From a virus: a DNA stretch of 27,124 nt. The stretch spans positions 1 to 27,124 of the IMG/VR virus record IMGVR_UViG_3300038619_000085; one strand, written 5' to 3'. Position 1 is the first letter of the stretch; every line of letters starts with the position of its first letter. A program made the position numbers and the translations under genes. The notes under the pieces were generated by a model. That model did not search any database, had not been told where the DNA came from, and was given only the letters and a program-made list of their open reading frames with translations. Below are positions 6,790 to 19,772 of the stretch, piece after piece.

Positions 6790-7941
6790 CTATTGCCCCC
6801 TCCGGTTCATTTCCGCCGCGTATTCGCGCGCCAGCGCCACGTTCTCCGAGAGCACCAGGCGCAGCGCTTCCGCTGCCGGCGTCTTCCCCTTGCTCGCCGT
6901 AATCTTCGCCCTCACCAGCTCGGCCACTTGCGCGCCCGCGCCCACCGCCGCATCGCCTTCCGAGGCCGCCGTTCCCCGCGTCCCCATGTCGATCTGCGGC
7001 TTCATCGATTCCACCAGCGATTGGAGATCGCCCAGCGCCATCTTCTCGTATGCGTCGCGCTGCGACGGCAGAATCTTCCCCGCCTTAATCGCCTCGCTCA
7101 GCAGCATCTGCGTCTGCTGCGCGCGGAATACTTCGCCCGCCACCAGCACCCCTTCGCCGCTCACATCGAGCGATCCGAAGTCATAAGCCTTCGACGTCGG
7201 ATCGCGCTTCACGTCGGACAATCGCAGCACTTTCGGCGGAGCCTCCAGCCCCTCCAGTTGGATCTGCGCTTCCGTGCCATCGTCCAGGACCGCCCGCACC
7301 GTGCCGGCGACGCGATCCGTTAAGATCACCTTCGAAACTTTCACCGCTTTCTCCTTTTTCCCCGCGTCGCCGCGGCTTGCCTGCTCGTCCAAATCCCACC
7401 CGCGTTCGCTCAGCACCAGCGCCGGCATCCCTTGCAGCACCGGCGTGTTCGTCAGCGCCGCGCTCGACAATGTCCAGCCCTGCGCTTCCCCCGTCTTGTT
7501 GTCCCGCACCGTCGGATCGATCACCGGCGAAACGTACTTGTATTCGCCCGCCGCGATCATCCCCGCCGCCCTCGGCGTCCATTGCACCGTGCCCCACAAA
7601 ATTCCTTCCGGATCCGGCCCGTCGTCGATTCCTTTGATCCAGCCCGCCGCCGGCACCGCGTCTCCCGATCCCGCCGCCAGCTCGATCGCGTGCTCGTAAT
7701 CGATCGGCACTTCGCCCGTGTCCCGTTTGCGGAAGTTCTTTACCACGTCCGCCAGCATCGAGCGCGTGATCTCGATCCGCTGCTTGCCCTTGTATCGCAC
7801 CCCGAGCTGCGCGATCGGCAACCGCCCCGTCCGCGCCATCGCCGCCGTCAGCGCGATCGCATACGACGCCGCCGGCGTCAGTTCGGTAGCGCCGGCGGTC
7901 TTGCCGCCGGTGTTCTTCTCGTCCGAAATCTCCGCCGTCAT
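6790..7941 (-). CDS. Mu I-like prohead protease / scaffold protein
   Basis: A 383-residue protein of the Mu-like prophage I family, a protease domain followed by a scaffold tail. The family landmarks are present at about residues 80-155: V-P-I-D-Y-E-H, then G-W-I-K-G-I-D-D-G-P-D, L-W-G-T-V-Q-W-T-P-R-A, and Y-K-Y-V-S-P-V. The C-terminal 150 residues are helical and charged, as expected for the scaffold that fills the prohead and is then degraded. The ATG at 7941 overlaps the portal stop (ATGA). Residues 10-20 (N-T-G-G-K-T-A-G-A-T) come from family A repeat copy A1, so the N-terminus has been extended by the repeat. Confidence 0.87.
   Translation of the reverse strand: MTAEISDEKNTGGKTAGATELTPAASYAIALTAAMARTGRLPIAQLGVRYKGKQRIEITRSMLADVVKNFRKRDTGEVPIDYEHAIELAAGSGDAVPAAGWIKGIDDGPDPEGILWGTVQWTPRAAGMIAAGEYKYVSPVIDPTVRDNKTGEAQGWTLSSAALTNTPVLQGMPALVLSERGWDLDEQASRGDAGKKEKAVKVSKVILTDRVAGTVRAVLDDGTEAQIQLEGLEAPPKVLRLSDVKRDPTSKAYDFGSLDVSGEGVLVAGEVFRAQQTQMLLSEAIKAGKILPSQRDAYEKMALGDLQSLVESMKPQIDMGTRGTAASEGDAAVGAGAQVAELVRAKITASKGKTPAAEALRLVLSENVALAREYAAEMNRRGQ
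7885..7913. repeat. Family A palindromic repeat, copy A1
   Basis: GGTAGCG lead-in, then stem CCGGCGG (7892-7898), loop TCTTG, stem CCGCCGG (7904-7910). This copy has a G:C pair at the stem base where other copies have A:T, on both arms. It encodes T-G-G-K-T-A-G-A-T near the N-terminus of the protease/scaffold protein. Confidence 0.93.
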
Positions 7942-10379
7942 GCCGCTTTGCTCCCTTCGTCCTTGAACACCGCCACAATCACGCACCGGCACAAATCCCC
8001 GCCATCGCAATCCGGATTTGGCGCGCCCGGCAGCTCGTCTTCCGTGTCCGCTTCCGCCCCGTCCGCGTTCGCGCAGTTCCCGCACGTATTCAGATCCAGC
8101 AGCGCCGATTGAATGTAGTGGTCGATCTCGTCGGCGAATTCCGCGAACCCCGCGCTGCGCCCTTCCGCGAACGCCTCGTTCGCCCCCTTCCCCGCCACGT
8201 TATCGATCCACTTGTCCGATTGCCCATCGAGATCCTCGTGCACCCCCTGGATAATCTCGCCGTCCGTCCCGCCCTTCCGCTTCCGGTCGATCGCCGCATT
8301 CGCCGCCCGCGCCCCCAGCGTGTTCGTGTACTGCGATACCACCCCGTCCGCGTACAGCCCAATCGCATCCTGCGCCGCCACAATCTTGGTGGGGCATGCT
8401 TCAGCTTGCCAACCCGGCGTAGCCGGGCTTTGTTCGCTCTCATCGGCCGCGCCGCCTCGGATCTTCGCCGCGTCCTCAACCGCCCCGCCGCCCCTCTGCT
8501 TCGCCCTTTCCTTCACCACTTGCCCGTGCCCGAACCGCGCTACCCCGTCCAGTATCCCCGCCACTTCCGCCAGCAGTTTCGGATCCGCTTCCACGCTGGC
8601 CCTGTGCATCTGCCGCACCGGCCGGTTCAGCACCTTGTGGACGATCTCCGCCTGCACCCGCCCGCGCGCTGCACGCAGCGCCGCCGCCACATCGTCGCGC
8701 CCCTTGTCGAGCGCCCCAACGATTTCCGACAGCGACATGCACCGTTCCGCCCCACGCGGCTCGCGCTTCAGAGGTAGATCCCGATCCGCCCCGCTCCGCC
8801 GCCAGCCGTCCTCCGCCCCCTTCACCTTCTCGCCCTTTTCCGGCCCTTCGCCGGTCTTCCCAGGACCGCCCGCGCTCGCGCTCTGGGCCGGTTCCTTGCC
8901 CCCGCCAGGCGCCCCGCCCTCTTGCCCTGGCTCGGCCGCGCCGGCCGCCCCCTGCCCCGGCTTCCGCGGCTGTTTCCCCATCGTCACCGCGGCCTGGCGG
9001 ATCTTCACGATTTCCGCCCGCTCCACTTTCGGCGCGCCCATCTTCTGCCGCACCCACATCTCGAGATCCGGGTCCGGCGTCAGCACTTGCGCCAGGCCCA
9101 GCTTCGACAGCGCGTCCACCACGCTCTCGAATTTCATCGCGATGATCTGCTGCGGCACCAGCTTCGGCGCGCGCACTTTCGCCCCGAAGTTGTAATAGGC
9201 CAGCCGCGCGATCGTGTTCCGCGTGTACGCGTCTCCCACCTGGTTGGCCAGCGATTGCAGGCTCAGAAAGAAGAAGTCCGACATCGTCTCGCCCAGGCTC
9301 CGGTTCCCCCCGCCGCGCGATCCTTGCCCCATCAGCATGAACGTGTTCAACGCGGCCATCGAAATCTGCATGTTGTGGTGTTGGATCGATTCCTTGCAGT
9401 CCCGCACCTGCCCCACCACTCCCTGCAGTCCGAATTTGTAGCCGCTCGGATACATCACGTACGCGCTCTGGCTCGCCGCCACGCTTTTCAGAAACGCCTC
9501 GAACGCGTTCCGGTCCTCGACCTTCGCCCCCGGCCCCAGCTCGCCGAATGGCACGCCCATTCCGTTCCGCTCCAGGCTCATCGCGTCGATCTTGTACAGC
9601 GCCGATTTCGTGTACCAGTGCTGGTACATCTCGCGTTGAATCGCCCGCCCCGCGAAGTTCGAGCCCTCCCGCCGGAACGTGAACAGCGCGATCTTATTCG
9701 CCGGCAGCGGATACGATGTGAAGCTCCCCCCGTGGAATCCGTGCTGCACCAGTTCGAGCAGATCTTCGTTCTGGTCGATCGTCCAGGTGTAGAACGTCAG
9801 CGGCATCCGCGGCGCCATCCGCGCCAGGCGAATCTGCCCGTTCGTCGACGTCCATATGTCCTCGTGGCACGCCGAACCGAAATCGAGCGCGAGCAACTGG
9901 TTTTCGAGCGAGCGGTCAAAGTCGCAATCATCGAACAGGCAATCCTCGATGAATTCTGCGCAGTCCTTTTCGTCGGGGCTGGCATCGTCCGGGGGCTGCA
10001 CCGCCCACTCCGCGCAGCGCACCGGCGCTTTCATCGCCATCAGCGTCGCAGACACTTGCGCATCCGACCGCCGCATCTTCTCATACGTCTTATACGCCGT
10101 GAACGGACCGCCCGAAAACAGCTCGTTATATTCCCCCAGCTCGCGTATGTAGCCCTGCCCGAAGATCCCTGTGCCGGTAGTCCCCATCTCGACCATCGAT
10201 GGCTCCGGCGGCACTTGCTTAAGCTGCGACCCATCGAGCGCCGTCCGCGCCGCCGGCCCCACCGGCCCCGTCACGGCTACCGGCACTGCGGCGCCCGCGC
10301 TCTTGCCTGTGGCGCCGGCGATCTCGTCGCCGGTGGCTCTTGCCGGTCCTCCCGCGATTCCCAATGAGAGCAGCGCCAT
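7938..10379 (-). CDS. Portal protein (Mu gp29/DUF935) fused to MuF head-morphogenesis domain
   Basis: An 813-residue fusion. Residues about 45-460 are the DUF935 portal: Y-I-R-E-L-G-E-Y-N-E-L-F, A-Q-V-S-A-T-L-M-A-M-K-A-P-V, and later R-N-T-I-A-R-L-A-Y-Y-N-F-G-A. It forms the DNA channel of the head. A low-complexity Gly/Pro/Glu linker follows (about residues 475-540). Residues about 660-813 are MuF-like: helical, then a cysteine cluster L-N-T-C-G-N-C-A-N near 770 and G-D-L-C-R-C-V-I near the end. In Mu these are separate genes H and F. Two repeats have entered: A2 encodes residues about 15-24 (A-T-G-D-E-I-A-G-A-T), and B2 encodes about 651-664 just before the MuF domain. The gene starts directly after the terminase TAG. 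Confidence 0.88.
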   Translation of the reverse strand: MALLSLGIAGGPARATGDEIAGATGKSAGAAVPVAVTGPVGPAARTALDGSQLKQVPPEPSMVEMGTTGTGIFGQGYIRELGEYNELFSGGPFTAYKTYEKMRRSDAQVSATLMAMKAPVRCAEWAVQPPDDASPDEKDCAEFIEDCLFDDCDFDRSLENQLLALDFGSACHEDIWTSTNGQIRLARMAPRMPLTFYTWTIDQNEDLLELVQHGFHGGSFTSYPLPANKIALFTFRREGSNFAGRAIQREMYQHWYTKSALYKIDAMSLERNGMGVPFGELGPGAKVEDRNAFEAFLKSVAASQSAYVMYPSGYKFGLQGVVGQVRDCKESIQHHNMQISMAALNTFMLMGQGSRGGGNRSLGETMSDFFFLSLQSLANQVGDAYTRNTIARLAYYNFGAKVRAPKLVPQQIIAMKFESVVDALSKLGLAQVLTPDPDLEMWVRQKMGAPKVERAEIVKIRQAAVTMGKQPRKPGQGAAGAAEPGQEGGAPGGGKEPAQSASAGGPGKTGEGPEKGEKVKGAEDGWRRSGADRDLPLKREPRGAERCMSLSEIVGALDKGRDDVAAALRAARGRVQAEIVHKVLNRPVRQMHRASVEADPKLLAEVAGILDGVARFGHGQVVKERAKQRGGGAVEDAAKIRGGAADESEQSPATPGWQAEACPTKIVAAQDAIGLYADGVVSQYTNTLGARAANAAIDRKRKGGTDGEIIQGVHEDLDGQSDKWIDNVAGKGANEAFAEGRSAGFAEFADEIDHYIQSALLDLNTCGNCANADGAEADTEDELPGAPNPDCDGGDLCRCVIVAVFKDEGSKAA
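8389..8428. repeat. Family B palindromic repeat, copy B2
   Basis: GTGGGGCATGCT, TCAGCTTGCCAACC, then a perfect hairpin CCCGGC-GTA-GCCGGG. Both arms of the hairpins differ from other copies in a paired way. It sits in frame in the linker between portal and MuF domains and encodes P-G-W-Q-A-E-A-C-P-T. Confidence 0.85.
10309..10337. repeat. Family A palindromic repeat, copy A2
   Basis: Stem CCGGCGA (10315-10321), loop TCTCG (one base different from the usual TCTTG), stem TCGCCGG (10327-10333). It encodes A-T-G-D-E-I-A-G-A-T about 15 residues after the portal start. Confidence 0.93.
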
Positions 10380-11921
10380 CTAGAACACCGCCTCCGCCAA
10401 TTCCGCCGCCACCGGACGCCCGCCCACCGCGCCCCATTGCGCCACCGATTGGTAGCGCGCCGCCCCTTCCATCGCTCCGCACAGCAGCGCCGCTGCCCAA
10501 AACCAGTCCGCGTGGCCGCCCTTGTCCGTCCGCTGCGCGTCCAAGCGCACCGCCCCCGTCGGCCCCACGTACCGCTTCACCGCCTGGAACTCCCGCCGCA
10601 GTTGCACCGATTCCGGCAGCCAGATCATACGATCCTCGCACCGCCGCTTCAGTATCCCCGCCAACCGTTCCTTCACCCCAACCTTCATCGGTTTGTTTTC
10701 CGCGTCCAGCAACCCCGATTCGACCGATGTGGAGAAGTTTACCGGCTCCACGCAATCGAACCGCCGCCGCTTGCCGCTCGCGTCCGTGTACCCCGTGCTT
10801 AACTCTTCCCCGAGCTGCATCCCCAGCCCCGTCGCATCCATCGCGAAACGGCCGCCCGATTCCGTCACCACTTCCGCCACCTGCGCGCAAATCTCCCTCT
10901 GCTGCTCGAAGCGCATCTGCGATAGGATGATCACCCCGCAGATCACCAGCAACGGCCCCACCGGGTATCCCAGGATAATCAGCGATCCGTCCCTCTTCCG
11001 CGCCACGTCGTAGCCCGCGCTCAGGCCCGGCCGCGCCTGGCCGTCCCAATCCATCGTCGCCTCGCTCGATTCGCACTCCAGCACCAGCGATAACGGGATG
11101 TACTGCGATCCGTCCTCCATCGGCACGTTGCAGAAATCCTGCATCCATATGTCGTCGTCGGCGATCGCCCGCCGCATCTCTTCGAGATCCACTGGCGCGC
11201 CTTGCCGCACCGCCATTTCCGCGGATACCCAATATCCGTGCCATGCCTCGCGGATCACCGGCTGCGCTTCCGGCTCGGCCCCATCCGCCAGGCCCAGGAT
11301 CTTCGCCATCTCGCCGAACTTGTTCGTCGTGCCGTTCAAGGTGCTCGCCACGCGCATCTTGAACCCGCGGCTCACGCGCGTCATCGCCGCCGCCCACACT
11401 TCCTTCTGATTGCGCGATCGCCCGAATTCGTCGAGAAACAAATCGCCTGAATATCCGCGCGCCGTGTCCGGATTCGATGCCAGCGCCAGCAGCCGCTTTC
11501 CGTTCGGAAACACGAACCTCCGCTCCAACATGCTGGTGTCCGCGAAGTAGCCGTCCTCGAACGCCACGCTCCACGCCCGAACGTGCATCTTCACCTTTTC
11601 CACGACTTCGTTCGATTGCGGCTGCGATGCGCTCAATATGATTCCGAGCTGCGCGGACGCCGATCCCTCCTTCATTCGATCGAGCGCCATATCGAGCGAC
11701 CCGGTGAACGATTTCCCCGCGCTCTGCGATGCCCCCACCACGAACTTGAACCGGTACTCGTCCTCGATCCACTGCTTCTGCCAATCCAGCAGCTTCACCA
11801 CCGGCCCGTTCGCCCCCAACGCTTCCCGCAACGGCGCGGCCGCAGTGGCGCCGGCGATCCCAGTGGCGCCGGCGATCTTGTCGCCGGTGGCCTTTCCCCC
11901 CGCTCTGGCCCTTCCCGCCAC
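10380..11921 (-). CDS. Terminase large subunit, Mu gp28-like
   Basis: A 513-residue packaging ATPase/nuclease. Walker A is G-A-S-Q-S-A-G-K-S at about residues 63-71, and Walker B with catalytic Glu is L-F-L-D-E-F at 161-166. The nuclease domain shows A-G-Y-D-V-A-R-K-R-D-G-S, R-F-A-M-D-A-T-G-L-G and, near the end, D-K-G-G-H-A-D-W-F-W, consistent with an RNase H-like metal site. The start is a GTG at 11921 overlapping the upstream TAG (TAGTG), with AGAGGA seven bases before it; a longer N-terminal reading frame exists but overlaps the upstream gene. Residues about 11-26 are one full and one partial family A repeat in tandem. It pairs with the DUF3486 gene upstream. Confidence 0.9.
   Translation of the reverse strand: MAGRARAGGKATGDKIAGATGIAGATAAAPLREALGANGPVVKLLDWQKQWIEDEYRFKFVVGASQSAGKSFTGSLDMALDRMKEGSASAQLGIILSASQPQSNEVVEKVKMHVRAWSVAFEDGYFADTSMLERRFVFPNGKRLLALASNPDTARGYSGDLFLDEFGRSRNQKEVWAAAMTRVSRGFKMRVASTLNGTTNKFGEMAKILGLADGAEPEAQPVIREAWHGYWVSAEMAVRQGAPVDLEEMRRAIADDDIWMQDFCNVPMEDGSQYIPLSLVLECESSEATMDWDGQARPGLSAGYDVARKRDGSLIILGYPVGPLLVICGVIILSQMRFEQQREICAQVAEVVTESGGRFAMDATGLGMQLGEELSTGYTDASGKRRRFDCVEPVNFSTSVESGLLDAENKPMKVGVKERLAGILKRRCEDRMIWLPESVQLRREFQAVKRYVGPTGAVRLDAQRTDKGGHADWFWAAALLCGAMEGAARYQSVAQWGAVGGRPVAAELAEAVF
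11845..11859. repeat. Partial family A repeat next to A3
   Basis: GTGGCGCCGGCGATC, the left half of a family A element, ending three bases before the full copy A3. The pair encodes a doubled I-A-G-A-T in the terminase N-terminus, suggesting slippage or a nested insertion. Confidence 0.85.
11863..11891. repeat. Family A palindromic repeat, copy A3
   Basis: Stem CCGGCGA (11869-11875), loop TCTTG, stem TCGCCGG (11881-11887). It encodes A-T-G-D-K-I-A-G-A-T about ten residues after the GTG start of the large terminase. Confidence 0.94.
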
Positions 11922-12151
11922 TACGCCATCCTCTTCAATTCCGCCGCCGTCTCCGTCAATTCCGCGCCGCGCCCGTGAAACCGCATATAACTCCGCGTGA
12001 TCGCCGCATGCTCCGTCCACCCCGTCGCCATCACATCCGTCCCGCAAGTGGGGCAGGTCGCCGACCTGCCAACCGGCCGTAGGCCGTCCGTGGTAGCGCC
12101 GGCGGTCTTGCCGCCGGTGGCCTTTGCCGCCGCCTCAGTTGCGCAGCCCAT
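11921..12151 (-). CDS. 76-residue zinc-finger-like protein with repeat-derived N-terminus
   Basis: Small gene between the DUF3486 and large terminase genes. The ATG at 12151 lies inside the end of the upstream gene, with GGGAG about five bases before it; the TAG overlaps the terminase GTG. Residues 1-9 are unique. Residues about 10-20 (K-A-T-G-G-K-T-A-G-A-T) come from repeat A4 and about 22-35 (R-P-V-G-R-S-A-T-C-P-T) from repeat B3. The remaining 41 residues look native: C-G-T-D-V-M-A-T-G-W-T-E-H, and R-F-H-G-R-G later. C33-P-T-C36 with H47 and H59 could bind zinc, and C33 is supplied by the repeat. Function unknown; position suggests a packaging accessory. Confidence 0.65.
   Translation of the reverse strand: MGCATEAAAKATGGKTAGATTDGLRPVGRSATCPTCGTDVMATGWTEHAAITRSYMRFHGRGAELTETAAELKRMA
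12048..12086. repeat. Family B palindromic repeat, copy B3
   Basis: GTGGGGCAGGTC-GC-CGACCTGCC with 7-bp arms GCAGGTC and its partial complement, then AACCGGCC-GTA-GGCCG. It lies four bases from A4, so the two families sit side by side inside one small gene. It encodes P-V-G-R-S-A-T-C-P-T. Confidence 0.9.
12091..12121. repeat. Family A palindromic repeat, copy A4
   Basis: Stem CCGGCGG (12099-12105), loop TCTTG, stem CCGCCGG (12111-12117), with the GGTAGCG-type lead as in A1 and A7. It encodes A-T-G-G-K-T-A-G-A-T. Confidence 0.93.
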
Positions 12152-12662
12152 AAATCTCCCGAATCTCCCGCAGCCGCTCTTCCGCCGATAGCTCCGGCTT
12201 GTCCACGCCCAGCACCGCAACCGCCCGCGCTTCCCGCGCCTCCACCATCGCTATCCGCCGCTCGTCGATGGCCAGCGCCCGCTCCTTCGCCGCCACTTCC
12301 CGCTCCTTCAACGCCACCTTCTTCGATTCAATCCCGAGGCCGTGAAATTTGATCGGGTCCGCCCCCGTCAGCTTCGTCGGGTCGGTCAGCAGTTGCTCGA
12401 ATGCCAGTGCCTCGATCATCTGTCCGCCATCGAGCCCCGCTTCCTTCATGGCTCGGAAGTTATCTTTCGCGCGCTCGAACTGGTCCCGCGCCCCGCGCCA
12501 TTCCGCCGCCCGCCGGGCCATCGTCCGCTCCGACACCGCCTCCCCGGTCGCCTCCTTCACCGCGCCGATCAGCCACAGCGCCGTCCGCCCCGCCGTGAAT
12601 CCCGCCAACATGATCCGCTTGGCTTCCTCGCTCAGTTCGTCCGTCTTGGGTTTCCGCGCCAT
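12135..12662 (-). CDS. DUF3486 protein, Mu gp27-like (probable small terminase)
   Basis: A 175-residue helical protein directly upstream of the large terminase locus, with the DUF3486 arrangement: a basic N-terminus (M-A-R-K-P-K-T), a helix-turn-helix-like first 50 residues containing R-T-M-A-R-R-A-A-E-W, and a long charged coiled region (K-V-A-L-K-E-R-E-V-A-A-K-E-R-A-L-A) at residues 110-150. In Mu-like phages this protein is thought to serve as the small terminase or DNA-recognition partner. It starts three bases after the upstream stop; the ribosome site is weak, which fits reinitiation. Confidence 0.82.
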   Translation of the reverse strand: MARKPKTDELSEEAKRIMLAGFTAGRTALWLIGAVKEATGEAVSERTMARRAAEWRGARDQFERAKDNFRAMKEAGLDGGQMIEALAFEQLLTDPTKLTGADPIKFHGLGIESKKVALKEREVAAKERALAIDERRIAMVEAREARAVAVLGVDKPELSAEERLREIREIYGLRN

Positions 12663-12665
12663 GGC

Positions 12666-13007
12666 TCAAAAACTCACACTCGGATCGGCCGCTATCTGGC
12701 CATCGATCAGTTGCATCCCCTTCGGCAACAACTTGGCAAACGCAATCTCGGCCCCATCTATGCCCATCTCGCGATCCGTCCGGAAGCCCGGCATGTCTTC
12801 CTGCCGCCACAGCCGCAAATACCCCGACGCCTCCAGCAGCGACAAGTGGTATCGCAGTCCGTCCGGCGTGATCGCGCAACCCGTCAGAAAAAGCGCGTGC
12901 CCGAGCACCCGCAGGCTGGTCATCCGGTGCGTGTAGTCCTGCTGCAGCGCGTGCAGAATCGCCCCGCGCTCTTCCGCGTGCCGCGCTTGCGTCATCTCGC
13001 TAATCAT
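12666..13007 (-). CDS. Winged-helix protein, Mu gp26-like
   Basis: A 113-residue protein with the pattern of the Mu gp26-type ArsR-like small protein found before DUF3486: H-A-E-E-R-G-A-I-L-H-A-L, then V-L-G-H-A-L-F-L-T-G-C-A-I-T-P-D-G-L-R-Y-H-L-S-L-L-E-A-S-G-Y-L at residues 34-64. That is a recognition helix followed by the turn into a wing. The ATG overlaps the stop of the gp25-like gene (ATGA). It is likely DNA-binding, possibly part of packaging initiation or late regulation. The family function in Mu is not established. Confidence 0.75.
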   Translation of the reverse strand: MISEMTQARHAEERGAILHALQQDYTHRMTSLRVLGHALFLTGCAITPDGLRYHLSLLEASGYLRLWRQEDMPGFRTDREMGIDGAEIAFAKLLPKGMQLIDGQIAADPSVSF

Positions 13008-13348
13008 CCCTGTCTCTCGCGCGCCGCCGCGCCCCCTTCCCGCTCCCGGACAAACTGGTCGATCATCTGCAAACATTGCCGCTGCACATCCATCCGGTCC
13101 GCCAGCATCCGGACCGCGATCAATACCTCGCCTTGCTGCCCGCTCGATTTCTCGCTGATCTGCACAAGCTGTGTCACCGCGCACGCCTGTTGCACCATAG
13201 CCCTGGTCTGCTCGCGCTGTGCTTCGATGAATGCCATGCCCCACTTATCCGCCAGCCGGTAGAGCATGCCCATCCCGATCGCGAGCACCCCGACGCCGCC
13301 GAAGTCGGCCACCCCCTTCGCAATCGTCACTGGCACATCGCTCATCAT
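13004..13348 (-). CDS. DUF2730-like small membrane/coiled-coil protein, Mu gp25-like
   Basis: A protein of about 114 residues with one hydrophobic segment at residues 15-33 (F-G-G-V-G-V-L-A-I-G-M-G-M-L) followed by a predicted coiled coil (Q-R-E-Q-T-R-A-M-V-Q-Q, then V-R-M-L-A-D-R-M-D-V-Q-R) and a basic tail. This layout matches the DUF2730/gp25 proteins that precede gp26 in Mu-like phages. The start is one of two consecutive ATGs at 13348 or 13345, overlapping the stop of the fibre-like gene by one base; there is no clear ribosome site, so coupling is likely. Confidence 0.7.
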   Translation of the reverse strand: MMSDVPVTIAKGVADFGGVGVLAIGMGMLYRLADKWGMAFIEAQREQTRAMVQQACAVTQLVQISEKSSGQQGEVLIAVRMLADRMDVQRQCLQMIDQFVREREGGAAARERQG

Positions 13349-15393
13349 CAGTGATGCACGCTCGCATGATATAGAGTCAACTGAAACCGGTCCCCAAGAG
13401 ATCCAGTCAGGCATCCGATCCCAAAGTATGTCGGAGAGGCAATCTGAAACGTGTCACTGGCCGAATATTGCAGTTGCCACCCCGACCCGGTGTTCAGATA
13501 CCAATTGCGGTTTACCCCGTCATCCACCATCTCGGAACGAATCACGGGCTCCGCGAAAACGCGCGGCGCGGCTGGGGCGCCGGTATATCCGGCGCAGAAA
13601 TTGTTAAAGAGCGAAGCGCATATCGTCAGGCTGGCGCTGCCTCCGTAGCCGTTGTTCCAGACCGGGCCAAAGAATGCCGATGTTGCCGCGTTCCCATTCG
13701 CGACTCCCCAAGCGCAGCTGGCATAACCACCCAAGTCTGCGTCCACCGTGAAAGCGATCTCTATCGTGTAGGGCGTCGAGATCGAAATCGGAGTCAGCAT
13801 ACCCAGGAAGTTATACACGTTGGTGTTTGTGCTCGCTCTCACTCCCGACAGTTGCACTGCGCCGGCTACGTTGGCAATAGTGGGAGTGTCTGTGCCGGCG
13901 CCGACCACGGGCGTCCAGGTCAGTGCCGTAGGCTCGACCACCTGCATGTCGAACGCCACCGGTTGCCACGTCGCCCCATCGCATTCCCAGTGCTTATTGC
14001 TCACATCCGAGGCATGGAACAATTGCCCGACGTTCGCACTCATGCACGTTCCCCGACTAGCATACGTCCCGAACACCGGCGCCGGCGCGCTTCCGCCTCC
14101 GCCGCCCGATCCCGCCACCTGCTGCGTCCACGTATTCGCCGCCGAACATTCGTAGATCTGCTGCCCTGCCGTCGCCCCCGAAACAAACGCCAGTTCACCC
14201 GCCGCGCACGTCCCCGGCAACGCTCCCGTCGTCGCCGCCACGATCACCGGCCGCGTGTGGGATGCGCCCGAGAAATCCTGCGTCCCCGCCGTGAATGTGT
14301 TGCTCGCATTTGTCGCCGCGGCGTAAGTCACTTGTGCCGCCGTGTAGTCGCCGCTCGCCGCCGCTACCGCGCCCGTGCGCCCAAAGACACTCGACACTCC
14401 ACTTACCGCCGCGTTCGTCGGTCCCATGAAGCACCACACTAAGCCGCTGAACCGTACCTGCCGCATCACTCCCGCCACAATGTCGGAGGATGTCGGGTTA
14501 GTCGCGCAATCCGCTTGCTTTAGAGAATGACTTCCCAGTGTGTCGATATTCAATGTGGTCGCTCCGCCGGCGCCGCTCACATCGGACACGAAGTTAATCA
14601 CCATCCCCGGAGTATAGGCGGTCAAAACGGGCGACATGGAACACGTATAAGTCGTGGCCGATGCGCTCTCGGTCGCGCAGAGCAGCGCATTACCGGATTG
14701 CACCGCCGCGATCGTCTCCATCACGCTTGTGTCCACCGCCGGCTCGACCTCTATTTTGCTCCCCGCTTGCGATATTGCGAGAGTCACGCCGAACCCACTG
14801 ACGAACTCGACGGCCGACGTCGCTCCCACTAACGTCGCGCCGTTGTAGATACTCTCAATGCCGCCCTCTAGCGTCCACACGTTGCCCGCCGTGCAGCCAT
14901 ACAAATTCGCGCCCGCCGCCGCGTCCGTCGCAAAGTACGTCTGCCCCGCCGCGCATACGCTCGGCATCCCCGCCAGCGTCCCTTGCAATGTCATCGTGAG
15001 TGCCCCGGCCGCCGGCGTCACCGCCACGTCTTTTGGCGCCAGCACGTTCGTCGTCGTCGGCACCGCCCACGTTTCCGTTCGCTCCGTCGCCCCCGTGATC
15101 TGCCATCTCACCGTGTACGTCGCCGCCGGCGTGCTCGTGTCCGTCGGCACCAGGCCCACCGCGAACGCTCCATTCACGAGCGTGATCTTCAGCGCCGCCA
15201 GTTCCACCTCGGTGCCGTCGCCCGCGGTGAACGCATTCGATGGCGTGATCGTCAGCGTCCCCGTGGCGAGCTTCCCAGCCGCGTTACGCGCCGTTCCAGC
15301 CACTGTCGTGGTCACCGGCGCCGCCGCGCTCGCCGCCCACGTCAGCGCCAGTAGCGCCAGTAGCGCCGCGAGCCGTCCAAAATGCCCCGCCAT
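13348..15393 (-). CDS. Large exported fibre-like protein
   Basis: A 681-residue protein from the ATG at 15393 (GGGGA eight bases upstream; an alternative ATG at 15408 adds five residues). It begins with a Sec signal (H-F-G-R-L-A-A-L-L-A-L-L-A-L-T-W-A-A-S-A). The mature chain is Thr/Ala/Gly-rich and carries S-S-V-F-G-R-T-G-A-V-A-A-A-S-G-D-Y-T-A-A near residue 340, a motif widespread in phage tail fibres. Several short cysteine-containing repeats of the type C-A-A-G-x2-Y/F...W-T follow or precede it. The C-terminal 190 residues look like a lectin/laminin-G-type beta-sandwich (I-E-I-A-F-T-V-D-A-D; N-W-Y-L-N-T-G-S-G-W-Q). Position right after the early/late boundary is unusual for a fibre. Virion fibre, or a cell-surface protein of the lysogen, are both possible. 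Confidence 0.7.
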   Translation of the reverse strand: MAGHFGRLAALLALLALTWAASAAAPVTTTVAGTARNAAGKLATGTLTITPSNAFTAGDGTEVELAALKITLVNGAFAVGLVPTDTSTPAATYTVRWQITGATERTETWAVPTTTNVLAPKDVAVTPAAGALTMTLQGTLAGMPSVCAAGQTYFATDAAAGANLYGCTAGNVWTLEGGIESIYNGATLVGATSAVEFVSGFGVTLAISQAGSKIEVEPAVDTSVMETIAAVQSGNALLCATESASATTYTCSMSPVLTAYTPGMVINFVSDVSGAGGATTLNIDTLGSHSLKQADCATNPTSSDIVAGVMRQVRFSGLVWCFMGPTNAAVSGVSSVFGRTGAVAAASGDYTAAQVTYAAATNASNTFTAGTQDFSGASHTRPVIVAATTGALPGTCAAGELAFVSGATAGQQIYECSAANTWTQQVAGSGGGGGSAPAPVFGTYASRGTCMSANVGQLFHASDVSNKHWECDGATWQPVAFDMQVVEPTALTWTPVVGAGTDTPTIANVAGAVQLSGVRASTNTNVYNFLGMLTPISISTPYTIEIAFTVDADLGGYASCAWGVANGNAATSAFFGPVWNNGYGGSASLTICASLFNNFCAGYTGAPAAPRVFAEPVIRSEMVDDGVNRNWYLNTGSGWQLQYSASDTFQIASPTYFGIGCLTGSLGDRFQLTLYHASVHH

Positions 15394-15408
15394 TTTGTGC
15401 GTCCCCAT

Positions 15409-15488
15409 TCGCTGGCTTATTCTATCTCATCGCCCGATTCCGAAACGTGGATATTACGGAATGTTTTCATGAAAACATTCCATAACAA
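15409..15488 (-). promoter_or_regulatory. Candidate late promoter region with 24-bp perfect palindrome
   Basis: The 80-bp gap between the early cluster and the late operon is AT-rich against its surroundings. It holds a perfect 24-bp palindrome at 15458-15481 (half-site GGAATGTTTTCA), extended to 15454-15485 with one mismatch. On the minus strand a TAGAAT box lies at 15424-15419 without a recognisable -35 box. The palindrome centre is about 48 bases upstream of that box, a class I activator position. This resembles the activator-dependent middle/late promoters of Mu, but the activator is not identified. Confidence 0.6.
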
Positions 15489-15776
15489 CTATTCCCGCCT
15501 GGTGGCGCCCGTGACGCTGCCTGCCCGTGCTCCATCCGGGCCCGTGGCGCCGGTGATCTTGTCGCCGGCGTTTTCTCCCCGCTCCACCATCCGCGCGTCC
15601 ATCTTCCGCATCTGCGCATACGTCCCCCGCGCCGCCCGCCGCGCGGCCGCCAGGCTCATCAGCAGCGCCGCCATCCAGTCCGCCATCTCCGTCCAGTTCG
15701 GCAGCAGATACCGGCCGCCGAAATAGAGCGCCAGCACCCCCGCCCCGTACAATGCCACGTCGATCCCTTTAGTCAC
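15489..15776 (-). CDS. Small membrane protein (holin candidate) with repeat-derived tail
   Basis: A 95-residue protein starting at a GTG that overlaps the GemA stop. It has a hydrophobic segment at about residues 5-25 (I-D-V-A-L-Y-G-A-G-V-L-A-L-Y-F-G) and a second, weaker one at 33-47 (W-M-A-A-L-L-M-S-L-A-A-A), then a basic region. In Mu the lysis genes lie between the early region and gp25, so a holin-type role is plausible. The last 25 residues read N-A-G-D-K-I-T-G-A-T and, after a gap, S-V-T-G-A-T. These come from repeat A5 and a degenerate second copy, so the original C-terminus was probably shorter. Confidence 0.65.
   Translation of the reverse strand: MTKGIDVALYGAGVLALYFGGRYLLPNWTEMADWMAALLMSLAAARRAARGTYAQMRKMDARMVERGENAGDKITGATGPDGARAGSVTGATRRE
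15502..15515. repeat. Degenerate partial family A repeat
   Basis: GTGGCGCCCGTGAC resembles the left half of a family A element with one inserted C. It encodes the terminal S-V-T-G-A-T of the small membrane protein, 28 bp from the full copy A5. Confidence 0.55.
15544..15570. repeat. Family A palindromic repeat, copy A5
   Basis: Arms CCGGTGA (15550-15556) and TCGCCGG (15562-15568) around loop TCTTG. One G:T-type mismatch breaks the stem, an intermediate between the A3 and A6 sequences. It encodes A-G-D-K-I-T-G-A-T in the small membrane protein. Confidence 0.9.
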
Positions 15777-16273
15777 CGCACCGCTCCTTCCCTTGTGGCG
15801 CCGGTGATCTTGTCACCGGTGGCTTGTCCGGCGCCTGGCCCCCCCCCGCCTCTCCGATTCATCGCGCGCACTCCCGCCACCACCGCGCAGAATTCCCGCC
15901 GCGTTCTAACTACCGGTCGGCCTTCTAACTGCCTTCTTATAAAGGCTTCTCTCTGCGCCTCGTCGAGCCCGCGTTTCGCGAACTCTTGCGCTAACTCGCA
16001 CAACTCGTCCTCGCTCACCAGTCTTACTTCGCCAGGTCGCGACTTAGCCGCCTCTCCGCGCGCCGGTAAGTTGCATCTGCGTCTGAGTGTCTTCCCCGTC
16101 CAGCCGTGGTAAATCTCGAATAAGTTGTTGTCCGTCATCTCCGAGAGCGAGTGTATGCCATAAGTCGCGTGGCACATGTCCCGTAACTCGTCGTGGCTCA
16201 TCCCGCGCCGCCGCGCTTCCGCGTGTACCGCCCGCATCAGCCGCGCCTTATAACCCGCTCGTGGTCCCGCCAT
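15773..16273 (-). CDS. gemA: GemA/gp16-like regulatory protein
   Basis: A 166-residue protein resembling Mu GemA (gp16, DUF1018). The N-terminal half begins R-A-G-Y-K-A-R-L-M-R-A-V-H-A-E-A-R-R-R-G-M and continues to L-S-E-M-T-D-N-N-L. The C-terminal half has L-V-S-E-D-E-L-C-E-L-A-Q-E-F with R-R-E-F-C-A-V-V-A-G-V-R-A-M near residue 140. Mu GemA alters host gene expression through DNA supercoiling. The start at 16273 has GGAGGG eight bases upstream and is one base after the previous stop. The final 18 residues, including A-T-G-D-K-I-T-G-A-T, derive from repeat A6. The stop overlaps the next GTG (GTGA). It is more divergent than a typical GemA. Confidence 0.72.
   Translation of the reverse strand: MAGPRAGYKARLMRAVHAEARRRGMSHDELRDMCHATYGIHSLSEMTDNNLFEIYHGWTGKTLRRRCNLPARGEAAKSRPGEVRLVSEDELCELAQEFAKRGLDEAQREAFIRRQLEGRPVVRTRREFCAVVAGVRAMNRRGGGGPGAGQATGDKITGATREGAVR
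15795..15823. repeat. Family A palindromic repeat, copy A6
   Basis: Stem CCGGTGA (15801-15807), loop TCTTG, stem TCACCGG (15813-15819). Both arms carry the substitution, restoring full pairing relative to A5. It encodes the C-terminal T-G-D-K-I-T-G-A-T of the GemA-like protein. Confidence 0.93.
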
Positions 16274-16274
16274 C

Positions 16275-16748
16275 TTAAATCCCTCCCCCGCCTCGCGCCC
16301 AGGCGCGCTGATAGTGCACCGAACACAATCCCTTCGCATATACTGGCTCGCCGCAGACCGTGCAGCGCGCTTCCGATTTCACCCCGCCGCCCTTGCGCTT
16401 CTCCGGGTCTCCGTGCCGCCGCCAGCGCTGGTAGTGGATGTAACACCAGCCTTTTATGCGCGCTCGCTCACTGCACTCTTCCGCCGCGCATTTCCGGACT
16501 TCCTTCGGCTCTGGCGCCCTCGCCGCGCTTCCATACTTGTGCTGATATTGCCAGTGCCGCGTGCAGAGCCCCTTCGAGCGCGCCACCTGCTCGCATCCCG
16601 CGATTGAGCACAGCTTCTTTCCTATCCCGAGCAACCGCTGCCGCTCCGCCGCTTGCCGCTCCCGGAGCGCTTCGGCCTCGGACGCAATCGCCGCATCCAG
16701 CTCCCGAAACCGTTCCTCCCGGCATTCCCCCTTCTCCGTCCGATACAT
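16275..16748 (-). CDS. Triple CCCH zinc-motif protein
   Basis: A 157-residue protein with a charged helical N-terminus (residues 1-42) and three tandem cysteine/histidine units. Unit 1 is C-S-I-A-G-C ... K-G-L-C-T-R-H-W-Q. Unit 2 is C-A-A-E-E-C ... K-G-W-C-Y-I-H-Y-Q. Unit 3 is C-T-V-C ... K-G-L-C-S-V-H-Y-Q. Each unit has the form C-x(2-4)-C-x(7-9)-G-(L/W)-C-x2-H-(W/Y)-Q and would bind one zinc. Such motifs occur in phage proteins of unknown role and beside HNH nucleases; nucleic-acid binding is the likely function. No good ribosome site precedes the ATG at 16748, and the 82-bp leader contains repeat A7, so expression may have been altered. Confidence 0.7.
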   Translation of the reverse strand: MYRTEKGECREERFRELDAAIASEAEALRERQAAERQRLLGIGKKLCSIAGCEQVARSKGLCTRHWQYQHKYGSAARAPEPKEVRKCAAEECSERARIKGWCYIHYQRWRRHGDPEKRKGGGVKSEARCTVCGEPVYAKGLCSVHYQRAWARGGGGI

Positions 16749-16830
16749 ATAAAGATGTGGCGAGCGCGCCCGTCTTGGTAGCGCCGGCGATCTTGTCGCC
16801 GGTCCTAGGCCGGGCGCGCTCCCCCTCCCT
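16749..16830. other. Spacer with nested inverted repeats
   Basis: Repeat A7 (16777-16803) is enclosed by a second perfect inverted repeat, GAGCGCGCCC at 16762-16771 and GGGCGCGCTC at 16812-16821. On the minus strand GGGAGGGGG precedes it, so a good ribosome site is now separated from the downstream ATG by about 75 bases of structured sequence. No gene seen here. Confidence 0.6.
16777..16803. repeat. Family A palindromic repeat, copy A7 (only non-coding copy)
   Basis: GGTAGCG lead, stem CCGGCGA (16784-16790), loop TCTTG, stem TCGCCGG (16796-16802). It lies in the leader of the zinc-motif gene. Confidence 0.93.
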
Positions 16831-17388
16831 CTACGCCGGCCGCCCCGTCGCCCCGCGCGGGCTCAATCCATACCGTCCCCCATCGCGCGCCACCACCAGT
16901 CCATCCTTCACGCATTGGTCCAGGATCAGCTCGGCAATGATCGCATCGCACGTCGCATCGCCCGATTCGCGAATCTTGAATGCGATCTCCTGCTTCGTCT
17001 TCGGCCCCGTCTTCAGCAACTCCAGCGCTTTCTCCCGCCGCGTTCCGCGCAAATCGTCCGCCAACAGTCCGTCGAATCGCACGTACAGCTTGCCCTTCGC
17101 CTCCGCGAACGAGACGCGATAGCCCAGCTTCTTCGACCGCGCTCCAACCGATGCCTTTGCCCGCGCATCGTCGAATTGCGCCCACTGCCCTTTCGAATCC
17201 GCCAACTGCCGCAGCAGCGCGTCGTATGGCGATGCCTTCCGCTGTCCGCGCCCGAACTCCAGGCCCTTCACGACGTCTTCCGGCAGATCCTCCGGCCGCA
17301 CCAGCCGGCACGCCACTCCCGTCATGTTCGGCCTCACGCCCTTCTCCGGCGCCGGCAGCTTCCCGTCCACCTGTCTCGCTATCCTCAT
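16831..17388 (-). CDS. Early protein with C-terminal winged-helix domain
   Basis: A 185-residue basic protein. The N-terminal 50 residues include N-M-T-G-V-A-C-R-L-V-R-P-E-D-L-P, and the middle has beta-prone Y-R-V-S-F-A-E-A-K-G-K-L-Y-V-R-F. The last 65 residues (A-L-E-L-L-K-T-G-P-K-T-K-Q-E-I-A through K-D-G-L-V-V-A-R-D-G-G-R-Y-G-L-S) have the three-helix and wing pattern of a winged-helix DNA-binding domain. The start at 17388 overlaps the upstream stop (ATGA). A longer in-frame extension runs back through the neighbouring gene and is rejected. Probably a DNA-binding early protein, and a candidate for the late activator; no family named. Confidence 0.68.
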   Translation of the reverse strand: MRIARQVDGKLPAPEKGVRPNMTGVACRLVRPEDLPEDVVKGLEFGRGQRKASPYDALLRQLADSKGQWAQFDDARAKASVGARSKKLGYRVSFAEAKGKLYVRFDGLLADDLRGTRREKALELLKTGPKTKQEIAFKIRESGDATCDAIIAELILDQCVKDGLVVARDGGRYGLSPRGATGRPA

Positions 17389-17792
17389 TCCTTTTGTCCC
17401 TCTCCCGGAGCCTCCAGCCCCGCGTCCACGCTCATTGCGAGCTGGCCGCATAGTTCCGCCAGCGCGTGTTTGCCCATCAGCACGCGCAACCGTCTGAACA
17501 TCGAGAAGATCTGCCTTCGATACGGCCGCACGGCCGCCGCCTGATCTTCCAAATCCACCACCATGAAGTACCCGCCTGGCTCCCCGCGCCGGCCGCCGAT
17601 CCGCATCCGGTGCGTCACCACCAACCGCTCCACAATTGCCTTGATCTCGCGAATCGGCCATCCCGTCGCCGCCGTCAGTTCCGCGATCGAAATCGGATGC
17701 TCCCTTCCTTCGTGTTCCCAGATCAGCCATGCCAGCTTCACTTCCCGCGCCGTCGGCTCAACCTTCGATTCCGCGAACGGCGCCGCCGCCAT
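17385..17792 (-). CDS. Winged-helix / MarR-like early protein
   Basis: A 135-residue protein starting at 17792, where its ATG overlaps the stop of the TonB-domain gene (TAATG), with GGGAGGGGAG upstream. Residues about 15-75 form a helix-turn-helix with wing: V-K-L-A-W-L-I-W-E-H-E-G, S-I-A-E-L-T-A-A-T-G-W-P-I-R-E-I-K-A-I-V, then R-M-R-I-G-G-R-R-G-E-P-G-G-Y-F-M-V. The C-terminal part is helical. It is likely a transcription regulator. Together with the next gene it makes a pair of winged-helix proteins in the early operon, ahead of the late promoter. Confidence 0.72.
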   Translation of the reverse strand: MAAAPFAESKVEPTAREVKLAWLIWEHEGREHPISIAELTAATGWPIREIKAIVERLVVTHRMRIGGRRGEPGGYFMVVDLEDQAAAVRPYRRQIFSMFRRLRVLMGKHALAELCGQLAMSVDAGLEAPGEGQKE

Positions 17793-18220
17793 TACCGCTC
17801 CCCTCCCACCCAGCGCAGCGTGATCCACAGCTCTTCCGCGACCGGCCGCCCGTCGAGCGTCGCTGGCTCGTACCGCCATTGCCGCACCGCCCCGAGCGCC
17901 GTCTTCCGGAACGCCCGCGCGCCCATCACGATTTGCGCCCGCTCCACTCGTCCTTCGGCGCTGATCTCGGCCGTGATCGTCACCTCGCCCGTCAGCCCGC
18001 GCTCCTTGGCCGCCGGCGGATAGGCCGGAATCACCTCATGGATCAGCCGCGCCTCTTTCACGTCGCCGCCAACCGGCGCCGTTATCCGCTCCATCTCGCG
18101 CCCCCGGTCGCGCTGCTCTACCGCCCGGCAGTATTGCGCCGTCTCGATCCGCTTCGCCGCCCGCTCCGGCGCGCCCTGTTGCCACGCCGCCATCGTCAGG
18201 AATACCGTTATCAACATCAT
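17792..18220 (-). CDS. Exported TonB C-terminal domain protein
   Basis: About 142 residues. After a short hydrophobic N-terminus (M-M-L-I-T-V-F-L-T-M-A-A-W, best read as a signal or weak anchor) comes a TonB_C domain at about residues 60-138. It shows L-I-H-E-V-I-P-A-Y-P-P-A-A, G-L-T-G-E-V-T-I-T-A-E-I-S-A-E-G-R-V, A-L-G-A-V-R-Q-W-R-Y-E-P-A and E-L-W-I-T-L-R-W, the full consensus. True TonB proteins have a specific ExbB-contacting helix and a long Pro-rich spacer; both are absent. The gene is coupled to gam (stop overlaps a GTG at 18229; the ATG at 18220 has AAGGGG eight bases upstream and is preferred). It is atypical for a Mu early operon. A periplasmic TonB decoy is one idea; host-derived cargo is another. 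Confidence 0.83.
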   Translation of the reverse strand: MMLITVFLTMAAWQQGAPERAAKRIETAQYCRAVEQRDRGREMERITAPVGGDVKEARLIHEVIPAYPPAAKERGLTGEVTITAEISAEGRVERAQIVMGARAFRKTALGAVRQWRYEPATLDGRPVAEELWITLRWVGGER

Positions 18221-18225
18221 CGTCG

Positions 18226-18747
18226 TCACCCCTTCGCCGGCGCGCGCGTCGGCTCCGCGTAAAAAGTCTCTCCAGCCTCGGTCTTCAATCCGACCTTCTT
18301 CAACGCTTCCGCGTCCAGCTCCTTCAATTTCTCTTTATCCAGCTCCGGCTCTTTCGCCTCGTGGAAGTATTTCAGCCCGTGCTCCGCCCGGACCATCCGC
18401 TTGATGTCTTCCAGCTTCCAGCTACGGTTCAGCGGCTTTATTGCCGGCGGATCGTCACGCCGCCCAATCACTCCGCCCGCGAGCTGCAGATGCTTCGCGC
18501 CGTTGGCTTCGATCTCCACCAGGTGCGCATAGTAGTAATTCCGCAGCGCCAGCTCCGCCTCGATCTTGCGCCCCTTCGCATCGTTCATCTCGGGCTCGAT
18601 CTCGGCCGATGCCTGCGCCACTAGCAATCCGTGCCGCGCTTCCAATACCTCGATCTGGACGATCGCAACCAACAACTCCGCCATCGCCCGCTCGCAATCC
18701 TCCACCGTCGCCAGTTCCGCCCCCGTCCCTTTCCTCGGTCGCCCCAT
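18226..18747 (-). CDS. gam: Host-nuclease inhibitor Gam, Mu-type
   Basis: A 173-residue protein of the Mu Gam family, a Ku-like dimer that binds DNA ends and shields them from RecBCD-type exonucleases. The N-terminus has a long helix (E-R-A-M-A-E-L-L-V-A-I-V-Q-I-E), followed by the charged helix E-A-E-L-A-L-R-N-Y-Y-Y-A-H. The central strand is L-Q-L-A-G-G-V-I-G-R-R-D-D-P-P-A-I-K-P, the family hallmark. The C-terminal part contains Y-F-H-E-A-K-E-P-E-L-D-K-E-K-L. GGAGG lies seven bases before the start. An upstream gene reads through across its first 293 bases in another frame. Confidence 0.85.
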   Translation of the reverse strand: MGRPRKGTGAELATVEDCERAMAELLVAIVQIEVLEARHGLLVAQASAEIEPEMNDAKGRKIEAELALRNYYYAHLVEIEANGAKHLQLAGGVIGRRDDPPAIKPLNRSWKLEDIKRMVRAEHGLKYFHEAKEPELDKEKLKELDAEALKKVGLKTEAGETFYAEPTRAPAKG

Positions 18748-18961
18748 TAGCGCGCCTCCCCCCTGTGGCGCCGGCGATCTTGTCGCCGGTGTTCTCCCGC
18801 AACTCCCGCAGCTTCACTTCGATCCGCGCGTCAAGCGCAAGAAGCAGCCGCGCCCCTGCTTCGCGCGTCCATTGCGATTCGCCCGGCCACATCATGGCCT
18901 GCGCCTGTTCCCGCCGCTCCGCCATCTCGCGCATCTCGTCGTATCGATTCATCGCCGCCAT
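18455..18961 (-). CDS. Small early protein, frame-shifted by repeat insertion and reading into gam
   Basis: The first 56 residues (M-A-A-M-N-R-Y-D-E-M-R-E-M-A to K-L-R-E-L-R-E) look like a normal helical protein. Then N-T-G-D-K-I-A-G-A-T from repeat A8 follows, and the frame continues out of register through the start of gam for about 97 codons of Gly/Arg/Ala-rich shadow sequence. A TAA that would form the usual TAATG junction with the gam start is out of frame now. It would be back in frame if a 29-bp (or 26-bp) element were removed. So the original protein was probably about 60-65 residues. AGGGGG five bases upstream supports the start at 18961. Confidence 0.65.
   Translation of the reverse strand: MAAMNRYDEMREMAERREQAQAMMWPGESQWTREAGARLLLALDARIEVKLRELRENTGDKIAGATGGRRANGATEERDGGGTGDGGGLRAGDGGVVGCDRPDRGIGSAARIASGAGIGRDRARDERCEGAQDRGGAGAAELLLCAPGGDRSQRREASAARGRSDWAA
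18765..18790. repeat. Family A palindromic repeat, copy A8
   Basis: Stem CCGGCGA (18771-18777), loop TCTTG, stem TCGCCGG (18783-18789). It lies 18 bases upstream of the gam start codon, at the former end of the preceding gene. It encodes T-G-D-K-I-A-G-A-T. Confidence 0.93.
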
Positions 18962-19190: not shown

Positions 19191-19772
19191 TCACCTCCCG
19201 AAATACTTGGCGAGCGGATACAGCCCCGCCTCCAGCAATCCGCGCCCCAACCGCTCCTGCATCCGGTACAAGGCGTGGAAGAAATTCCCCCGGTTCATTC
19301 CCAGCCGCGGACCGCACTCGAACCACGGCCGGCCCTCTTCGCAATGCAGCCGCCACAGCAGCCGCTCCGCCGGCGGCAACACCCGCTCGATCACGCCCGC
19401 AAAGTCCACGCGATACTCGATCGTCTTGTAGTTCAACGCCCACCCGTAGCCAGCAACTGGCTCGATGAAAAGAAGCGCGCTGCCCGCAACCAGCGATTCC
19501 CGCACCTTCCGCTCTTGATCCCAGCACGCCCGCAAGATCCCTCTGTATGCGCACCCGCAAACACGCAGGCTCCAATCGGGCCGCCGCACTTCGCCGAATC
19601 CGAAGCAGATATCGCACCCGCCACGCGCGACGATCGCGTAGTTCCCGCCGCCGAATCGCGGCGCGCCCATCGCCGCCGTCTCCGGCAAGGTGGGGCAGGT
19701 CACCGACCTGCCAACCCGCATCCCCGTCGCCGCTTGCCCCGCCTCGTCGATTTCCGCCCGCACCGTCGCCAT
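19191..19772 (-). CDS. Cysteine-rich early protein with repeat near N-terminus
   Basis: A 193-residue protein. Residues 44-75 hold a probable zinc site: C-D-I-C-F-G-F-G-E-V-R-R, then V-C-G-C-A-Y-R-G-I-L-R-A-C. The spacing C-x2-C-x-G-x-G resembles half of a DnaJ-type zinc finger. The C-terminal half is helical and ends F-F-H-A-L-Y-R-M-Q-E-R-L-G-R-G-L-L followed by L-Y-P-L-A-K-Y-F, which has the look of a conserved phage protein tail, but I cannot name the family. Residues about 19-28 (V-G-R-S-V-T-C-P-T) are repeat B4. The original start may be M35 (M-G-A-P-R-F-G-G-G), with the N-terminus added by the repeat. Confidence 0.68.
   Translation of the reverse strand: MATVRAEIDEAGQAATGMRVGRSVTCPTLPETAAMGAPRFGGGNYAIVARGGCDICFGFGEVRRPDWSLRVCGCAYRGILRACWDQERKVRESLVAGSALLFIEPVAGYGWALNYKTIEYRVDFAGVIERVLPPAERLLWRLHCEEGRPWFECGPRLGMNRGNFFHALYRMQERLGRGLLEAGLYPLAKYFGR
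19690..19718. repeat. Family B palindromic repeat, copy B4 (short form)
   Basis: GTGGGGCAGGTC-AC-CGACCTGCCAACCCG. The first hairpin is intact (GCAGGTC pairing with GACCTGC) and the second hairpin is missing. In frame within the cysteine-rich early protein. Confidence 0.88.

Follow-up and report, generated by a model that had tools for sequence, protein, structure and literature searches.

REP elements of a Bryobacterales family within the genes of a Mu-like phage

The window, that is, the whole stretch of DNA analysed here, is a virus record of 27,124 bases. It carries Mu-type genes for an I protease (PF10123), a Mu-type portal (PF06074, Portal_Mu) and Gam (PF07352), which supports the earlier assignment to a Mu-like phage. 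The genes considered in the following are all encoded on the minus strand. They comprise the Mu-like prophage I protease/scaffold (6790..7941; PF10123, 4e-33), the portal (7938..10379; PF06074, 7e-41), the large terminase (10380..11921; PF03237, 5e-08), a 76-aa protein with a C..C motif (11921..12151; homologues in the related loci L140 and L168), a small membrane protein (15489..15776; homologue in L140, tblastn 1e-6), a GemA-like protein (15773..16339; homologues in L140, L141 and L168) and an ORF before gam (18455..18961). The name of the GemA-like protein was taken from the preliminary description, and the protein gave no Pfam match. Mu-like phages such as Pseudomonas phage B3 and Rhodovulum phage vB_RhkS_P1 have the same gene set of I protease, Portal_Mu, terminase and Gam, but the window terminase is at most about 32% identical to those of named Mu-like phages (best named phage among the matches listed). 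At the left end of the window, positions 1-127 and 173-299 form an exact 127-nt direct repeat, 172 nt apart, which is perhaps an assembly or end artefact.

Searching the whole window for the core of a palindromic repeat, with up to three mismatches allowed, we detected eight matches (at 7892, 10315, 11869, 12099, 15550, 15801, 16784 and 18771), versus 0.02 ± 0.14 (maximum 1) in shuffled windows, so that similarity by chance is excluded. All eight copies are on the same strand and, since the genes concerned all lie on the minus strand, they share one orientation relative to transcription. Seven of them are located within genes and one (at 16784) is intergenic; copy number, orientation and placement thus agree with the preliminary description. 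The unit common to all copies measures 25 nt; its coding-strand sequence is CCGGCGACAAGATCGCCGG and then either CGCTAC or CGCCAC. On the opposite strand it reads 5'-GTAG/GTGG-CGCCGGCGATCTTGTCGCCGG, with a GTAG head in three and a GTGG head in five copies, and the palindrome behind the 5' head comprises 19 nt. Folding of three short stretches gave a hairpin with a 7-bp stem and a 5-nt loop (-12 to -17 kcal/mol), and among the phage copies compared stem pairing was kept despite two-sided changes at two positions. No inverted pairs of the element were found in the phage window, and an Rfam search gave no match.

All copies lie on the minus strand. Within the protease gene, the element (7886..7910; GTAG head, G/C stem variant) occupies codons 11-19 after the ATG and is read TGGKTAGAT. 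The portal gene carries a GTGG-headed copy at its N-terminus (10309..10333; TGDEIAGAT) with a degenerate partial duplicate after it, and the N-terminus of the large terminase contains another GTGG-headed copy (11863..11887; TGDKIAGAT), after which a partial duplicate, IAGAT, is found. Both partial tandem duplicates, 11841-11870 in the terminase and 10280-10310 in the portal, keep the same frame (GIAGAT and GKSAGAA, respectively). Located between the small and the large terminase, the 76-aa gene harbours a second G/C stem variant with a GTAG head (12093..12117; TGGKTAGAT). Two GTGG-headed copies were identified at C-termini, one in the small membrane protein (15544..15568; AGDKITGAT) and one, with a compensatory T-A pair, in the GemA-like protein (15795..15819; TGDKITGAT). 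The last in-gene copy (18765..18789; GTGG head, TGDKIAGAT) lies at the 3' end of the gene before gam, where the ORF then continues over gam in another frame. A lost stop, as suggested previously for this gene, is plausible, and relatives have unrelated genes at that place. The intergenic copy (16778..16802) has a GTAG head and corresponds exactly to the consensus of the bacterial copies described below. It lies inside a perfect 11-bp outer stem (GAGCGCGCCCG/CGGGCGCGCTC) and forms the loop of this inverted repeat (16735-16830; about -49 kcal/mol, z -4.2); possibly it was inserted into an older hairpin or terminator.

The seven in-gene copies of the window are all read in the same frame, giving the nine residues T-G-(D/G)-(K/E)-(I/T)-(A/T)-G-A-T, with the A-G start in the membrane protein as the sole deviation. 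This had been claimed before, together with the statement that avoidance of stops does not force the frame, and both observations hold. All three sense frames of the element are open, which rules out stops as the cause of the single frame; on the antisense strand, one frame contains TAG in GTAG-headed copies. Every in-gene phage copy is found 18-55 nt from a gene end. We also considered that the N-terminal copies of the portal, the terminase and the 76-aa gene might be untranslated leaders, but this was ruled out, as relatives share the upstream start. For the portal, the start upstream of the copy is supported by homology (MA..LG...GP), the terminase start is marked by a conserved GTGGCGTAGTGG / GTGGCGTAATTGG junction, and the start of the 76-aa gene, MGC, is common to the window and L168. 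Judging from sequence variability only, the tag is probably placed in flexible parts of the proteins. The predicted terminase structure had a mean pLDDT of 37.5, too low to be informative.

Among viral contigs, we identified relatives whose terminases are 71-73% identical to that of the window. At orthologous junctions, empty sites were found in L140, L138, L141 and L168, and no copy of the element was detected at comparable orthologous junctions of related phages and prophages. For the portal, L140 reads MAWSPIQLGISGGPIETG and L168 MARIQTLGLPAGPVARPA, versus MALLSLGIAGGPARA-TGDEIAGAT in the window. In the 76-aa gene, MASVVKNVDPTICPKC (L140) and MGCEAGKDRVGGTGREACPTKATCPNC (L168) correspond to MGCATEAAAKA-TGGKTAGAT-TDGLRPVGRSATCPTC, and alignment of the terminases (A1) revealed 33-34 residues directly behind the start that are present in the window only. 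The C-terminus of the GemA-like protein is EQANNNTTEREGD in L140 versus GQA-TGDKITGAT-REGAVR in the window. Here the DNA is similar on both sides, and the gemA flanks ACAAGCC..AAGGGAAGGA are common to both phages, with L140 lacking the element. A reciprocal case was identified as well: L140 has a small gene whose C-terminus contains a copy (..GTGDKIAGVTGV, which overlaps an ATG), whereas the window orthologue ends ..GTKE without it. This L140 copy is in sense orientation and in the same frame as the window copies. For the protease, the membrane protein and the gene before gam, the termini are too diverged to define an exact empty site.

Because the comparable junctions of relatives are empty and L140 has its own copy where the window orthologue has none, the phage copies are recent insertions. 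The reciprocal insertion in L140 shows that gain of the element continued in this phage group after the lineages split. Empty sites and the distances of 18-55 nt bear out the proposal that inserted palindromes add an in-frame peptide at protein ends. Orthologues with the same peptide but no repeat, named in the preliminary description as the evidence that would speak against insertion, were not found at the junctions that could be compared.

When 84,980 genomes were scanned with a 22-base pattern, matches came mostly from Bryobacterales/Solibacteraceae MAGs (phylum Acidobacteriota, soil bacteria), while single matches in other groups mostly had no head and resemble coding sequence matched by chance. 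Six carrier genomes had 13 to 389 whole-genome matches with up to three mismatches, versus 0 for the reversed pattern. Applying a degenerate exact pattern, we found the element in 10 of the 101 genomes of the family, with 11 to 502 copies in the initial set of six carrier genomes and 3 to 30 in four more. Among about 250 host copies the heads were GTAG (193), GTAA (28) and GTGG (11). The G/C stem variant is common in hosts, and A/T and G/C stems are both major host variants. Coding sequence makes up 85% of the DNA sampled, and yet 210 of 247 host copies are intergenic. In addition, we observed 21 inverted pairs with their heads outward, mostly 12-27 nt apart, which resemble REPINs. In L118 and L123, inverted copies stand on either side of a short Y1-transposase gene; a third genome has two copies at the 3' end of such a gene. 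Two of these genes, in L150 and in L151 (the latter being the L118 gene), scored above the curated cut-off of NF047646 (REP-associated tyrosine transposase, RAYT), and a TnpA-REP structure was the sole PDB match. The element is thus a REP: a 25-nt unit with a GTAG/GTGG head that occurs in outward-headed inverted pairs, lies outside genes for the most part in its hosts and flanks RAYT genes. By every criterion tested (head, hairpin, copy number, extragenic bias, inverted pairs and RAYT link) we identified a GTAG-type REP.

These features define GTAG REPs and RAYTs (TnpA-REP) according to PMC2817692, PMC3733652 and PMC8266576, and the systems described there share with ours the head and palindrome, the high copy number, the extragenic bias, the inverted pairs and the flanking of RAYT genes. 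In contrast to them, the window element belongs to a Bryobacterales sequence family, which was not found in the consulted passages of the three papers, and it is present in a phage in eight copies, seven of them in coding frames, with most phage copies GTGG-headed. The likeness to Rickettsia palindromic elements that had been pointed out for the window holds in function only. Those elements, too, are mobile palindromes through which unrelated proteins gain in-frame peptides, according to PMC10969869 and PMC3733652, the latter of which counts RPE-4 and RPE-6 among intragenic repeats. As a family, however, they could be ruled out by length (25 nt versus about 100-150 nt; about 150 nt in PMC10969869), by head, by RAYT link and by the Bryobacterales host.

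Among 2.9 million viral contigs, a clear headed copy was found only in the window, in the sister phage (two contigs) and in one 4.5-kb contig. We detected no RAYT homologue in the phage record, possibly a fragment, and the portal of the window was not found in the six carrier genomes. Two further prophages, more distant from the window than the viral contigs, sit in genomes of the same bacterial family. None of the genomes examined has both the window phage and REPs; the nearest prophage, G238 (terminase 59-63% identical), resides in a REP-free genome. With one REP per 3.4 kb in the window, versus one per 17 kb in the densest host genome, phage REP density exceeds that of any host genome examined.

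To compare reading frames, host genes were taken from a hexamer-based caller trained on the loci of this set. Because its gene starts are unreliable, phase was counted only for copies with a coding signal on both sides. Counted by gene, the host in-gene copies used phase 1 in 9, phase 0 in 6 and phase 2 in 0 cases. Here, phase 1 (either strand counted) is that of the phage copies, phase 0 is Pro-rich and phase 2 Arg-rich. If the phases were equal, the probability of zero phase-2 genes among 15 would be 0.002. All host in-gene copies that did fall in phase 2 were either at gene edges of doubtful position or had a downstream stretch that is non-coding. The very sense phase of the phage is also used by in-gene copies of hosts, for example in L235, L243 and L245. 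At the host rate of 0.6, the probability that 8/8 phage copies (seven in the window, one in L140) fall in one phase is 0.017, and phage and host compared in phase use gave P=0.058 (Fisher). Since the host in-gene copies show a similar order of phases, the peptide tolerated by proteins goes far to explain the single-frame pattern. Two side observations concern host copies in coding DNA. In L150 (1272-1296) and L151 (near 439), the flanking REP supplies the C-terminus of the RAYT protein, read in the Pro-rich phase (..PAARPPALPG), and the 11.5 Mb carrier genome G069 (loci L228-L250) has an unusually large share of its REPs within long ORFs.

Orientation yielded a different picture. While 9/9 phage copies (eight in the window, one in L140) share one orientation, the host in-gene copies are 7 sense and 9 antisense (phage versus host, Fisher P=0.008), and tandem orientation in host intergenic DNA is 48 versus 68 (phage versus host, Fisher P=0.0006). 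A general bias in frame and orientation, as expected from the preliminary description, was not seen in the host survey. Since hosts use both orientations and two phases (9 and 6 genes), single frame and single orientation are not properties of the element, and a universal preference is ruled out. Uniform orientation is not predicted by passive insertion combined with peptide tolerance either, because AGDLVAG, the antisense phase-1 peptide, occurs in host proteins. Thus, the host data leave the single orientation of the phage copies without an explanation, and this is the least explained point of our analysis. One candidate cause is unidirectional replication of the phage, with insertions directed to the lagging-strand template. 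The heads differ as well, with GTGG in 5/8 phage copies versus 11 of about 250 host copies (Fisher P=2e-5). As the GTGG head is rare in hosts, the immediate source would be a sub-family outside this sample. The excess may go back to a host strain whose REPs have GTGG heads or to some spread inside the phage.

Taken together, these data make it probable that REPs of a Bryobacterales host lineage were delivered into the phage by RAYT and were kept near gene ends in a harmless Gly/Ala/Thr frame, which is the likeliest explanation. A host RAYT, a single-strand HUH transposase, would have supplied the REPs in trans while the phage was in the cell. Because phage genes overlap and leave hardly any intergenic space, insertions would survive only close to gene ends (about 55 nt or less), in variable regions of the proteins. 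The surviving phase would be the one that encodes the small, polar and flexible TGDKIAGAT, rather than the arginine-rich RRQDRRRH or the proline-rich PATRSPAP. The REPs would be passengers that extend proteins, and we found no evidence that peptide or hairpin serves the phage. Spread of the copies within the phage by recombination between them, instead of repeated transposition from the host, is doubtful. The otherwise rare GTGG head in 5/6 A/T-stem copies and a flank type, AR(G/A)(G/C)CCACCGG, common to four copies would fit such a spread. However, both major host variants (A/T and G/C stem) occur in the phage, and the gemA flank ACAAGCC is also found in the REP-free L140 site and is therefore ancestral, not part of a copied unit. 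Moreover, 25 nt without a longer common flank is a poor substrate for recombination.

We consider it unlikely that the hairpins act as RNA elements that tune translation, mRNA decay or termination at coupled junctions, so that selection spread them and fixed their orientation. Uniform orientation in 9/9 phage copies, positions within 18-55 nt of a junction or in intergenic DNA, stem pairing kept through two-sided changes and the very high REP density of the window phage are consistent with this reading, and bacterial REPs are considered to act as transcribed 3' elements (PMC3733652). But a near-palindromic hairpin should work either way round and needs no single reading phase, and REPs are missing at all compared junctions of relatives whose gene order is the same. 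Insertion tolerance gives the junction-only sites equally well, and the stem changes can stem from existing host sub-families, the G/C variant being common in hosts. Positive selection of TGDKIAGAT as a peptide module, as proposed for Rickettsia palindromic elements, is highly improbable. The sense orientation and single frame of 7/7 window copies and the 1/1 L140 copy, all of which keep T/A-G-D/G-K/E-I/T-A/T-G-A/V-T, would agree with a selected peptide, but the carrier proteins are unrelated (protease, portal, terminase, membrane and small proteins) and relatives do without the tag. In addition, the peptide is conserved no more than the DNA unit in hosts, host genes show a phase preference too, and the K/E and A/T replacements are non-synonymous. 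Similar peptides do arise by chance in unrelated proteins (TGSKITGAT in L145); nevertheless, chance similarity or a conserved phage protein motif instead of insertion is already refuted by eight matches versus 0.02 expected, in unrelated proteins whose homologues lack the peptide.

A second, GTGG-headed palindrome (GGCAGGTCGGCGACCTGCCCCAC) was observed on the minus strand of the window, in the 76-aa gene (12048..12070, read VGRSATCPT) and in gene 19191-19772 (19690..19712, read VGRSVTCPT). Its sequence is GGCAGGTCGG(C/T)GACCTGCCCCAC, the opposite strand beginning GTGGGGCAGG, and a third phage copy lies in L140 (11047-11069). Within phage genes, 3/3 copies use one frame, VGRS(A/V)TCPT. A closely related sequence, TTGGCAGGTCGGTGACCTGCC, occurs in three genomes of the family, two of which also carry the first REP. 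If both host REP families have colonised a phage lineage heavily, in one orientation and one frame at gene junctions, they could act as neutral linkers, and recombination between copies at different junctions would stay in frame and help module exchange; we regard this as very unlikely.

REPs are described as bacterial and mainly extragenic, with a poorly understood mechanism of dissemination (PMC8266576). Intragenic bacterial REPs have been known since 2013, some of them near N- or C-termini and possibly neutral in flexible parts (PMC3733652). Those examples come from bacterial genes (O. terrae, Xanthomonas, Thauera and others), and the consulted passages of that paper neither discuss phages as carriers nor describe a single frame and orientation. 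In the open-access literature searched, we found no report of REPs invading a phage. While REPs in bacterial genes are known, what is new is the Bryobacterales REP family, the fact that it has reached a phage, and the single frame and orientation that it has in the phage. Eight insertions, the empty sites of relatives and the reciprocal insertion in the sister phage form a record of REP movement and of its effect on proteins. Since phage genes leave little intergenic room, the phage reveals where within genes a REP can sit and in which frame, and the one-way orientation of its copies could serve to test RAYT insertion into the lagging-strand template.
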